Positions 33,477 through 36,687 of a DNA stretch of 64,000 nucleotides are shown piece after piece. Source of the DNA: Isoptericola variabilis 225. Its GTDB lineage: Bacteria; Actinomycetota; Actinomycetes; Actinomycetales; Cellulomonadaceae. How positions within the stretch are numbered: position 1 is the stretch's first letter; every line of letters begins with the position of its first letter. The translations under genes and the position numbers were made by a program. Where the stretch lies: assembly GCF_000215105.1 (NCBI RefSeq), contig NC_015588.1, positions 1,674,001 through 1,738,000 of the forward strand. The letters run 5' to 3'. The notes under the pieces were generated by a model. It was not told where the DNA came from, made no database searches, and saw only the letters and a list, made by a program, of their open reading frames with translations.

Positions 33477-33761
33477 GTGGGCGTGGCACCTGGCGGGCCG
33501 GGCGCTCTCGAGCAGACCCGCCGCGTGCTCGAGAACGTCCGCACCTGCCTGGAGGCAGCGGGCGCCGGCCTCGAGGACGTCGTGAAGTGGACCATCCTCG
33601 TCGCCGACGAGACCGCCATCCAGGACGGCCTGGCCGCCTTCGGCGATGTCTGGCCCCAAGGGGCCGAGCCGCCAGCGATCACCGTCGCCATCGTGTCCGA
33701 CGTCGGCCCCGAGGGCGCGCTCGTCGAGATCGAGGCGATCGCCGCCGTCGCCGAGTCCTGA
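33477..33761 (+). pseudogene. RidA-like fragment lacking N-terminus and key Arg
   Basis: 94 residues from the GTG at 33477. It begins at the RidA segment LEQTRRVLENVRTCLEAAGAGLEDVVKWTILVAD and ends VEIEAIAAVAES. The first ~35 residues of RidA (ISTDxAPxxxGPYSQ...) are missing, and the catalytic Arg found in PAR(S/T)xVxV is absent (PPAITVAIV here). RidA hydrolyses reactive enamine/imine intermediates, and without that Arg deaminase activity is not expected. It lies 24 nt after the UvrA-like gene and may still be read through. Confidence 0.6.
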
Positions 33762-33792: not shown

Positions 33793-34161
33793 TCACGACC
33801 GGCGCTCGTCCCACCACTCGAGGACACGCGTGGCGTGGAAGGTGAGCCACTTCGACGGCTCGCCGGGCGGGACGTCGACCTCGAACCAGACCCGGCCGGG
33901 GTGGCGGCGCTCCTGGAGCCAGGTCCCGTCGCGCGCCTCGGGGCCGTCGAAGTCGAAGCCTGCAGGGAAGAACGCGCCGCCGGCCCACTGCCCGTCCGGG
34001 TCCTGCAGGGCGAGCAGCCGGGCGCCGAAGCCCTCCGTCGCCACCCGCGCCCGGGTCGCCTGCCAGTCGTCCTCCGGCGCGTGGAGGAGGTCGCGCTCGA
34101 CCTGCCAGCGCAGCGCCGGGTCGGAGTCGAGGAGCCAGCCGATGACGTCGTCGTCCGCCAT
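33793..34161 (-). CDS. Shortened squalene-cyclase-like protein
   Basis: 122 residues, ATG at 34161 with a TACGGT -10 (34174-34169) 7 nt upstream. The N-terminal half (LLDSDPALRWQVERDLLHAPEDDWQATRARVATEGFGARLLALQDPDGQWAGGAFFPAG) looks like the start of ~300-residue prenyltransferase/cyclase-like proteins. The end (GEPSKWLTFHATRVLEWWDERR) looks like a C-terminus. The middle is absent, so the gene may be an internal deletion. Promoter and start are intact. Function unknown. Confidence 0.55.
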   Translation of the reverse strand: MADDDVIGWLLDSDPALRWQVERDLLHAPEDDWQATRARVATEGFGARLLALQDPDGQWAGGAFFPAGFDFDGPEARDGTWLQERRHPGRVWFEVDVPPGEPSKWLTFHATRVLEWWDERRS

Positions 34162-34287: not shown

Positions 34288-34956
34288 ATGACGTACGTCC
34301 TGGTCCCGGGTGCGGGTGGCGAGGCCTGGTACTGGCACCGCGTGGTGCCGCTGCTGAAGAGCCGCGGTGATCGTGCTGTCGCGGTGGACCTGCCGGCCGA
34401 GGACCCGACGGCGGGCCTCGCGGCGTACGCGGACGCGATCGCCGCGGCGGCCGACGGCGCGGACCACGTCACGCTCGTCGCGCAGTCGATGGGCGGCTTC
34501 TCCGCGCCGCTGGTGTGCGACCGGCTTGCCGTCCGGCAGCTGGTGCTGGTCAACGCCATGGTGCCGCGGCCCGGCGAGACGGGCGGCGAGTGGTGGCAGG
34601 GCACGGGACATCACGAGGCCTGGGTGGCCAAGGCCCGTGCCGAGGGGCGCGAGCCCGTCTTCGACGGGGTGACCGACTTCTTCCACGACGTGCCGCAGGC
34701 CGTGGTCGACGAGGCGTTCGCCCGCGGGGAGCCCGAGCAGTCAGGCCGGCCGTTCGAGGACCCGTGGCCGCTGGAGGCGTGGCCCGACGTCCGCACGCGC
34801 GTGCTGGCCGGAGCGGACGACCGGTTCTTCCCGGTGGAGTTCCAGCGGCGGGTGGCGCGCGAGCGCCTGGGGCTCGAGTGCGACGTGCTTCCGGGCGGCC
34901 ATCTCCTTGCGCTGAGCCGGCCTCACGAGCTGGTCGAGTACCTGCTCCGGTGCTGA
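34288..34956 (+). CDS. Alpha/beta hydrolase
   Basis: 222 residues. The hydrolase fold is MTYVLVPGAGGEAWYWHRVVPLLKSRGDRAVAVDLPAEDP, the nucleophile elbow VAQSMGGFSAPLV (Ser near 79), the acid region TRVLAGADDRFFPVEFQRR and the His in LPGGHLLALSRPHELVEYL. It is similar to salicylate-methyl-esterase-like (SABP2-type) hydrolases. Substrate unknown. The GC content of this gene is a little lower than its neighbours'. Confidence 0.82.
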   Translation: MTYVLVPGAGGEAWYWHRVVPLLKSRGDRAVAVDLPAEDPTAGLAAYADAIAAAADGADHVTLVAQSMGGFSAPLVCDRLAVRQLVLVNAMVPRPGETGGEWWQGTGHHEAWVAKARAEGREPVFDGVTDFFHDVPQAVVDEAFARGEPEQSGRPFEDPWPLEAWPDVRTRVLAGADDRFFPVEFQRRVARERLGLECDVLPGGHLLALSRPHELVEYLLRC

Positions 34957-34980
34957 ACGGGGCTCACCACCGCTACACCG

Positions 34981-35025
34981 ATAATGCACATTATGTCATT
35001 ACAGCTGGAGAAGACCCCCCTCCAG
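34981..35025. repeat. AT-rich inverted repeat and small hairpin after the hydrolase
   Basis: ATAATG (34981-34986), CA, CATTAT (34989-34994) is an AT-only inverted repeat, rare in this GC-rich window. It is followed by CTGGAG/CTCCAG (35005-35010 and 35020-35025), a small stem that may terminate the plus-strand transcript. Confidence 0.5.
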
Positions 35026-35054
35026 TGCCCTTCCCCGAGCCACCGGCGACTCTC

Positions 35055-35369
35055 TCAGTGCGTGACCTTGAGCCCGATCACGCAGCCGACGATGCCGGCG
35101 ATGAGCAGCAGCCGGACCACGGACACCGGCTCGGCGCCCGTCGCCATCGCGTACAGGACGGTCAGCGCGGCTCCGATGCCGACCCACACGGCGTACGCCG
35201 TGCCGACCGGCAGCTCGCGCAGCGACCAGCCCAGCCCGGCCATGCTCGCCACCAGCGCGACGCCGAACACGACCGTCGGCCCCCAGCGCGTGAACCCCTC
35301 GGACCGGTCGAGCGCCGTGGCCCACACGGCCTCCAGCATCCCCGACACGACCAGGACGATCCAGGACAT
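35055..35369 (-). CDS. gdx: SMR-family guanidinium exporter (Gdx/SugE type)
   Basis: 104 residues with four membrane helices: SWIVLVVSGMLEAVWATALD with the conserved Glu13 and the neighbouring Trp16, WGPTVVFGVALVASMAGLGWSLRELPVGTAYAVWVGIGAALTVLYA, and VVRLLLIAGIVGCVIGLKVTH. The Glu and the GTAYAxWxGIG motif define the SMR family. The guanidine-III riboswitch directly upstream places it in the Gdx branch, which exports guanidinium by proton antiport, rather than the drug-exporting Qac branch. A GAGGGGAG ribosome site lies just before the ATG, at the end of the riboswitch. Confidence 0.93.
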   Translation of the reverse strand: MSWIVLVVSGMLEAVWATALDRSEGFTRWGPTVVFGVALVASMAGLGWSLRELPVGTAYAVWVGIGAALTVLYAMATGAEPVSVVRLLLIAGIVGCVIGLKVTH

Positions 35370-35381
35370 GACGCTCCCCTC

Positions 35382-35424
35382 GGTGCCGTCTTGTCGCACA
35401 CCGGGTACGGCACCCCTCGTCCGG
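35382..35424 (-). ncRNA. Guanidine-III (ykkC-III) riboswitch
   Basis: Read on the minus strand, the segment contains CCGGACGAGG, then GCCGTACCCGG, then GACAAGACGGC, the three conserved blocks of the guanidine-III aptamer, in order and with the right spacing. The ~43-nt fold ends 12 nt before the SMR start codon, with the ribosome site just beyond the last stem, so translation is probably switched on by guanidinium. The neighbouring gene is the expected Gdx transporter. The match to the known Thermobifida aptamer is near-perfect in the conserved blocks. Confidence 0.93.
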
Positions 35425-35619
35425 GAGCCCCCACGGGCTCTGCGCCCGATGCTCGCACACCCCCGCCCGACCGGCGGTACACTGAATCGGACATTCGGGC
35501 TAAACCAGTGTGTATGGCACAACACCATCGTCTGGGACGGTGTCGGTGGCCGCTCCTACCCTGGCCACGACGCCGCAGGTCAACGCCCTGCGGCGCGCCG
35601 CCGTCGTGAGGAGGGACCC

Positions 35620-36687
35620 GTGGTCGCACCGCCGAGGCTCGAACGCCTCACCGTCGCCGAGGCCGCCGACCGCTACCTCGCGTCCGTGCGCGTCGAGACC
35701 GTCCGGGGCGTCCTCTCCCCCGCGACCGCGCGCAGCTACGAGCGCGACGTCACCGAGCTCGTCACCCTCCTCGGCCCCGGCCGCGTGCTCGACGACGTCA
35801 CGGGCGACGACGTCGACGACGCGCTCGTGCGCTACCAGGCCAGCCCGGACGGCCGCTACGCCGACCCCTCCCGCAAGGGCGCGCCCGGCCGCTCCACGGC
35901 GACCGTCAACCGGTTCCGCCAGTCGGTGACGCGCTTTTTCTCGCACGCCGCCCGGCACGGCTGGGTCCAGGCCGACCCCATGCAGTGGGCCTCCCCGCCC
36001 GCGAAGGTGCGCGAGCGCCTGCGCGTCGAGCGCACGGCCCTGTCCGCCTCGGCCGCGCAGGTCCTCCTGGCCACCGTCGCCGGCGGGTCCGGCAGCGGCG
36101 ACTCCGGCCCGGCCGCGCGCCGGCCCCGCGCCGACCAGGCGCTCGCGCCGCGCGACCGGCTCGTCGTCGCGCTGCTGCTCGTGCTCGGACCGCGCGTGTC
36201 CGAGCTCGCGCGCGCCGACGTCGCCGACTTCACGCGCGAGCCCGACGAGACCCGGTGGCGCATCGTCGGCAAGGGCGGCACCACACGCACCGTCGCCCTG
36301 AGCCCGCCGCTCGCCGCCGCGCTCGAGGACTACCTGACGCGGCTGCGCCCCCGGCTCGCCGCGCGCCGGCCCGACGACGCCGACGCCCAGCGCGCCCTGC
36401 TGCTGTCCTGGCGCGGCCGACGCCTGGACACGCAGGCCATCCGCGGCCTGCTCGCCCGCGCCGTCGACCGCATGCCGGCCCCCTACCGGCGCCCCACCAC
36501 GCCGCACGCCCTGCGGCACACCACCGCGACCCTGCTCGTGGCCGAGGGGTGGGACGTCAAGGTCGTCGCCGAGCTGCTCGGGCACGCGTCGATCGCCACG
36601 ACCGGCGTCTACCTCGACCGCATCGAGGGCGAGCTCGCCGCCGCCATCCGCAGCCACCCGCTCGCCGGGGCGCTCGCCGGCGGGTGA
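35620..36687 (+). CDS. Tyrosine recombinase (XerC/D-like)
   Basis: 355 residues, GTG at 35620 behind GAGGAGGGA. An N-terminal SAM-like DNA-binding domain (TVAEAADRYLASVRVETVRGVLSPATARSYERDVTELVTLLG) precedes the catalytic domain with all residues: Arg in GPRVSELARADV, Lys in VGKGGTTRTVAL, HxxR in HALRHTTATLL, His in LGHASIATTGVY and the nucleophile Tyr in TGVYLDR. No attachment site, phage or transposon genes are beside it, so I cannot say whether it is a Xer-type or a lone integrase. Confidence 0.88.
   Translation: MVAPPRLERLTVAEAADRYLASVRVETVRGVLSPATARSYERDVTELVTLLGPGRVLDDVTGDDVDDALVRYQASPDGRYADPSRKGAPGRSTATVNRFRQSVTRFFSHAARHGWVQADPMQWASPPAKVRERLRVERTALSASAAQVLLATVAGGSGSGDSGPAARRPRADQALAPRDRLVVALLLVLGPRVSELARADVADFTREPDETRWRIVGKGGTTRTVALSPPLAAALEDYLTRLRPRLAARRPDDADAQRALLLSWRGRRLDTQAIRGLLARAVDRMPAPYRRPTTPHALRHTTATLLVAEGWDVKVVAELLGHASIATTGVYLDRIEGELAAAIRSHPLAGALAGG

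Follow-up and report, generated by a model that had tools for sequence, protein, structure and literature searches.

The DNA described here is a 64,000-nucleotide (nt) stretch of the Isoptericola variabilis 225 chromosome (contig NC_015588.1, positions 1,674,001 to 1,738,000), called the window below and numbered from its first letter. It contains a predicted guanidine-III riboswitch, which is followed by gdx, a gene for an SMR exporter of the Gdx type, and which lies next to a gene for a tyrosine recombinase. Was this pair carried in by the recombinase, or is it an old resident of the chromosome? An earlier sequence-only reading had recognized the riboswitch and the exporter, had placed them in an accessory region beside a recombinase and decayed genes, and had suggested that the unit may be mobile. 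The analysis makes it very probable that the unit is what it was taken for and that it is a long-standing inhabitant of the chromosome, located between the chromosome dimer resolution site dif and a conserved 52-nt element, and not cargo of the recombinase. The features that matter for this argument are listed here.

34974–35001 (core 34978–34998), plus strand: dif, at which chromosome dimers are resolved; its core equals that of Frankia alni dif (PMC3025954), single copy in the genome
35055–35369, minus strand: gdx (sugE-type), gene of a predicted SMR guanidinium exporter of 104 residues; PF00893, with SugE as the best NCBIfam model and 6wk5 as the best solved relative
35374–35381, minus strand: ribosome-binding sequence GAGGGGAG, read in the sequence
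35380–35443, minus strand: guanidine-III (ykkC-III) riboswitch aptamer; RF01763, 66.9 bits against a cut-off of 36, full model
35478–35529, plus strand: conserved 52-nt non-coding element, here matching 32 of 34 fixed positions
35620–36687, plus strand: third, divergent Xer-like tyrosine recombinase gene beside dif; PF00589, relatives in 26 of 57 other genomes

The riboswitch and its exporter gene

The Rfam covariance search for guanidine-III proposed by the sequence-only reading was run with cmscan on the whole window, in which RF01763 is the sole Rfam family to reach its own cut-off. The match runs from 35443 to 35380, covers 67 of 67 model positions (E = 1.3e-11) and is the only guanidine-III match found in the 3.31-Mb chromosome. 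Three conserved blocks, all on the minus strand, have the order and the place originally given, namely CCGGACGAGG (35424–35415), GCCGTACCCGG (35411–35401) and GACAAGACGGC (35395–35385). The location of the aptamer was therefore right, but its upstream end had been set at 35424, 19 nt short of the full aptamer, because helix P1 was left out. A spacing of 12 nt to the SMR gene had also been given and needs correction, as the third block ends 15 nt and the Rfam match 10 nt before the ATG. GAGGGGAG comes straight after the aptamer, its first two bases being the final two of the RF01763 match, and the ATG of gdx comes next.

Judged by its sequence, the RNA is an ordinary guanidine-III riboswitch that precedes a guanidine exporter gene. 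It is a well-supported addition to a known class, which is found mainly in Actinobacteria (PMC12186494, PMC2864571). It shares with the class the ACGA core, P1, P2, the pseudoknot and the position directly before an SMR gene. It differs by a short P1 loop, and its conserved blocks show no departure. DUF1989 is a family that includes a guanidine-breakdown enzyme; neither a DUF1989 protein nor guanidine-I or guanidine-II was found in the same genome, in a search that did not extend to guanidine-IV, guanidinases or guanidine carboxylases.

The limits of the SMR gene and its conserved Glu13 had been read correctly. With 72.9 bits against PF00893 (cut-off 23.7) the gene product has an SMR domain, and the reading of its sequence together with an alignment to 6wk5 shows that E13, W16, S42, W62 and the GXG motif of transmembrane segment 3, given as Gdx residues in PMC9574504, are all present. 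Its best solved relatives are 6wk5 (E = 2.4e-18), which is Gdx-Clo (PMC9574504), and 8vxu (9.4e-18), and the alignments of these two to the gdx product indicate that they are nearly one sequence. The product has the same length as Gdx-Clo and aligns with it over residues 1–103. Of 21 NCBIfam models SugE is at the top with 89.2 bits, followed by a runner-up with 52.6. The SugE equivalog NF008512, however, has a curated cut-off of 126, in which respect the product differs from the Gdx/SugE exporters and for which reason the narrower SugE name was not assigned. For this protein a main role as a Qac-type drug exporter is extremely unlikely: Qac-type NCBIfam models match it too, but every one of them does so far under its own cut-off and behind SugE, the best EmrE entry (1e-07) is well behind Gdx-Clo, and a guanidine-III switch is located upstream of the gene. 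No second SMR gene was found in the 3.31-Mb chromosome.

The association of the two parts was examined in 58 genomes of the order, the genome of I. variabilis 225 included; these genomes are related, so the counts are not independent. There are 37 riboswitch matches, in 35 of the 58 genomes, and SMR genes in 46. A same-strand SMR match begins 6–32 nt downstream of 34 of the 37 riboswitches, 23 of which precede a single SMR gene and 11 a tandem SMR pair. Two of the three matches without an SMR gene (G036 and G022:C23) are below the cut-off and deviate from the core blocks. These three matches, having no SMR gene behind them, were excluded from the alignment of 34 sequences, throughout which CGGACGA and GTACCCG are unchanged. 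With the structure of P1, P2 and the pseudoknot taken from Rfam and from the window sequence, 90.8% of 530 cells pair, and 11 of 16 pairs have changed on both sides. These pairing and double-change values are matched by none of 500 shuffles, and pairing drops to 51.1% or less when partners are slid by 1–3 columns. P1 is the weakest helix (81.9% pairing). In every one of the 34 sequences the pseudoknot is paired; its first pair is C-G in 27 and G-C in seven. Covariation supports the predicted fold, including the swapped pseudoknot pair. Two observations weigh against the assignment: the third match without an SMR gene, in G030, exceeds the cut-off, and the 500-shuffle control makes no correction for relatedness. 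Taken together, covariance score, gene association, covariation and key residues support the guanidine-III class and the Gdx-type exporter, both of which had been proposed from the sequence.

Two further details of this set can be described. The swapped first pseudoknot pair is found in seven of the 11 tandem-SMR riboswitches (L026, L028, L029, L031, L033, L042, L053) and in none of the 23 single-gene ones. The guanidine-III match of G030 (L030 / L050; 42.8 bits) precedes an 86-residue protein without a Pfam match, and a search of that genome for an SMR gene found none.

The dif site and the third Xer-like recombinase

What is new about the locus is its position. The dif core TGACATAATGTGCATTATCGG, at 34978–34998, lies 56 nt past the gdx stop and fits 19 of 19 fixed positions. 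Its complement, CCGATAATGCACATTATGTCA, was checked against PMC3025954 and equals the 21-nt core of the Frankia alni dif given there. Region 34974–35001 is dif, the predicted site of XerC/XerD recombination. At up to three mismatches it occurs once in its own genome, and at up to two mismatches exactly once in 56 of the 58 genomes (G044 and G049 have none); backwards controls gave no copy in either case. This single-copy site is located away from oriC: dnaA starts the numbering at base 227, whereas dif is found 51.7% of the way along the chromosome. GC skew gives evidence neither for nor against a terminus here: it is weak over 20 sampled stretches, with a cumulative maximum in the 1.885 Mb stretch, and does not pin the terminus. 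The site resembles other actinobacterial dif sites in its core and copy number but is distinguished from them by the flanking gdx, beyond which lie the 52-nt element and the third Xer-like gene. Of 27 xer loci fetched, 26 carry dif, with 18 or 19 of the 19 positions matching. The exception is G006, in which the xer locus is on a short contig and dif is found on another contig, beside the remainder of the SMR gene.

The third Xer-like protein has relatives that are 67–92% identical in the other 17 genomes of the genus and in nine more of the family. Like XerC and XerD, it has a tyrosine recombinase domain and a SAM-like N-domain, and the catalytic set R, K, HxxR, H and Y can be read in its sequence. 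Unlike them, it scores well under both models (128.5 bits against a cut-off of 335.15 for XerC and 122.2 against 329.6 for XerD), and two better candidates are encoded elsewhere in the genome. The XerD candidate, L109, is above its cut-off with 331.6 bits, and the XerC candidate, L110, is below its cut-off with 298.4. The gene near dif thus occurs in addition to separate XerC and XerD candidates. It is mostly linked to cls, merR, bfn, fha and pgsA, often has a uvrA-like gene on the opposite side, and is in two pieces in G013 and G015.

A Xer gene near dif is not new in itself, because xerC genes are already reported to be mostly near dif (PMC3025954). The identity of the riboswitch–exporter pair is likewise known; the new point is its place beside dif. 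A search of the openly licensed literature found nothing relevant that links guanidine to dif, a tyrosine recombinase or the terminus, and nothing on an Isoptericola dif site.

Mobile cargo or chromosomal resident

The possibility that the riboswitch–gdx unit is mobile cargo, either of the neighboring recombinase or of some dif-using element, has to be considered, as dif is a known landing site for mobile elements and both the recombinase and shortened genes adjoin the unit. A mobile element would bring its own integrase, which would be absent where the element is absent, but here the recombinase persists in genomes with and without an adjacent gdx. The DNA around the unit gives no sign of movement either: there is a single dif copy in the genome, no tRNA was found in the window, and direct repeats around the unit are 69–94% identical, which is chance-like (20 of 23 families shown). 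Similar riboswitch–SMR DNA does occur in plasmid records, including those of Kocuria rosea and Tsukamurella tyrosinosolvens, so that such units can move; five of 72,556 plasmid records match, none of them over 80% of the query, and none of 50,697 phage records does. The distribution also leaves something to the mobile alternative, in that 26 of the 35 riboswitch-bearing genomes have their match away from dif, the nearest (G032) at a distance of ~10.5 kb. On balance, mobile cargo is a most improbable explanation. A recombinase-driven mobile island was rejected, given that the recombinase is kept without gdx and that the site is dif, in one copy. The mobility suggested by the sequence-only reading is not supported, as the recombinase that it pointed to is an Xer-like protein conserved in the chromosome and the unit sits at dif. 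The riboswitch–SMR-like DNA in the K. rosea and T. tyrosinosolvens plasmids (NZ_CP127860.1 and NZ_LR134465.1) is 72–78% identical to that of the window.

The description of the surroundings as an accessory region with decayed genes was half right. From the uvrA-like gene to xer the interval is variable, and it contains two shortened genes. The genes flanking this interval are, however, kept in most relatives compared.

33477–33761, plus strand: shortened rid gene
33793–34161, minus strand: shortened sqc gene

Gene calls in this interval are based on a simple codon-composition rule, by which G015 has longer versions of both rid and sqc in the same interval.

The gdx unit is found between dif and the 52-nt element in nine genomes (G000, G001, G006, G007, G008, G011, G015, G017 and G035), eight of which belong to one genus and one to its sister genus. 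The placement in G006 is inferred across two contigs, and in G001 and G017 the interval contains an additional gene besides the unit. A decayed gdx is present in the dif–element interval of G016 (L082; nhmmer E = 5e-12 and 1.7e-4), where the aptamer core is no longer recognizable and no riboswitch match was found. G016 also has a riboswitch-led SMR pair elsewhere in its genome. The other 16 of 17 intervals without intact gdx contain no credible remnant detectable with nhmmer. These include that of G014, whose conserved neighbors are the closest to those of the window (92% over six proteins). The interval of G024 gave two remnant matches at E of about 1, and reversed and shuffled controls gave none.

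We infer that gdx at dif is an old position, reached in one old arrival and followed by repeated loss. The trees are not entirely on the side of this history. A neighbor tree of six proteins, which comprises 23 of the 27 xer loci (G023, G024, G027 and G031 were left out), requires five changes for gdx at dif, and a single arrival with losses is not established because of this number. With its 34 rows, the gdx tree decides neither for nor against a single clade (p-AU 0.379; the bootstrap had not settled). Repeated gain of gdx at dif is a possible alternative to one old arrival.

The 52-nt element

The element matches at least 30 of 34 positions in 21 of the 27 xer loci and 24–27 positions in four; two loci have nothing at 24 or above. 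The four matches at 24–27 are weak because the consensus is partly post hoc, having been drawn up after viewing some of the loci later scored with it, and because its chance scores are limited to 400-nt upstream stretches and an earlier 48-nt version (best shuffled scores 19–25 of 48). In all 25 loci that score at least 24, the element is oriented like xer. At up to three mismatches, the I. variabilis genome has a single copy of its 44-nt inner pattern, and its exact core pattern is found in 14 contigs from Isoptericola, Xylanimonas, Promicromonospora, Krasilnikoviella, Oerskovia and Sediminihabitans. A role as the promoter of xer alone is not favored, because element and xer are 88–2825 nt apart in the 21 good loci and 3661 nt apart in one weak locus.

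The distance from dif to the element is 479–553 nt in the six genomes in which gdx alone lies between them and 1183 nt in two. Without intact gdx it is 414–586 nt in 16 genomes, although in three of these (G023, G024 and G027) the element match is just 21–25, and 823 nt in one; G006 and G031 are not measurable. By codon composition the gdx-free interval looks non-coding, and it can hardly be aligned between the close pairs tried. No Rfam RNA was found in eight of the loci that have xer but no gdx at dif. A speculative and rather doubtful interpretation is that in Isoptericola and its relatives dif, the element ~0.5 kb from it and the third Xer form one terminus module. The element would then be an accessory or recombination site of the third Xer, and the DNA between dif and the element would be replaceable: nine genomes have the gdx unit there, and most others compared have unrelated DNA that is about as long and apparently non-coding.

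Mode of control

A possible promoter is located a few bases upstream of the aptamer.

35449–35457, minus strand: TGC-GAGCAT, possible extended -10 promoter element; TGC-KANNNT common to nine of nine aligned gdx-at-dif loci

In each of these nine loci the motif directly precedes the aptamer. A generic consensus scan of 34900–35750 found no sigma-70 site. If TGC-GAGCAT is an extended -10, transcription would begin at the aptamer or slightly upstream of it. The RNA probably starts at the first aptamer bases. Guanidinium would be sensed by the riboswitch, and its binding would close the CCGG/CCGG pseudoknot beside the ribosome site and switch on the single downstream gene. For guanidine riboswitches PMC9574504 gives a range of about 0.06–0.2 mM. 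The gdx product would be a small proton antiporter, probably a dual-topology homodimer, that exports guanidinium.

Translation is the likely level of control, because GAGGGGAG and the ATG directly follow the aptamer and a scan of 34900–35750 found no terminator-like site. According to PMC12186494, release of the ribosome site is the predicted action of guanidine-III, which in addition shields the mRNA from RNase E. The proposal of translational control made by the sequence-only reading is plausible on these grounds and finds no backing in folding. When the bound aptamer is imposed on the 34 sequences, the mean unpaired probability of the ribosome site is 0.37, compared to 0.43 in the free state. 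It rises by more than 0.1 in nine of the 34, the expected direction, and falls in 16, among them the window sequence (from 0.41 to 0.24). In several rows, most of them from tandem-pair loci (G012, G001b, G016, G041, G054, G055), it is doubtful whether the right ribosome site was picked. Switching of the ribosome site as modeled by free-energy folding is accordingly not supported. A duplex between the 3' strand of P1 (GGCTCCC in the window) and the ribosome site is a weak lead to how the site might be masked: its computed energy is -10.50 kcal/mol for matched and -9.48 for swapped species (permutation 0.0034). Such duplexes beat their own shuffles at 5% in only three of 34 sequences, and that of the window is equalled by 10% of shuffles.

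The folding results leave some room for a riboswitch that shields the mRNA from nuclease or acts on transcription instead of opening the ribosome site. Both the missing terminator-like site and the 10 nt from aptamer end to ATG, too little for a separate expression platform, argue against it, and PMC12186494 names translation as the predicted level. Control by one of these other routes is appreciably less likely than control at translation.

Significance of the position

FtsK and XerCD must reach dif. The value of the locus is positional, as a riboswitch-controlled efflux gene is found within a few hundred bases of dif. With dif, a conserved element and a third Xer-like gene arranged in this way, the locus poses a concrete question on how these Actinobacteria resolve chromosome dimers.
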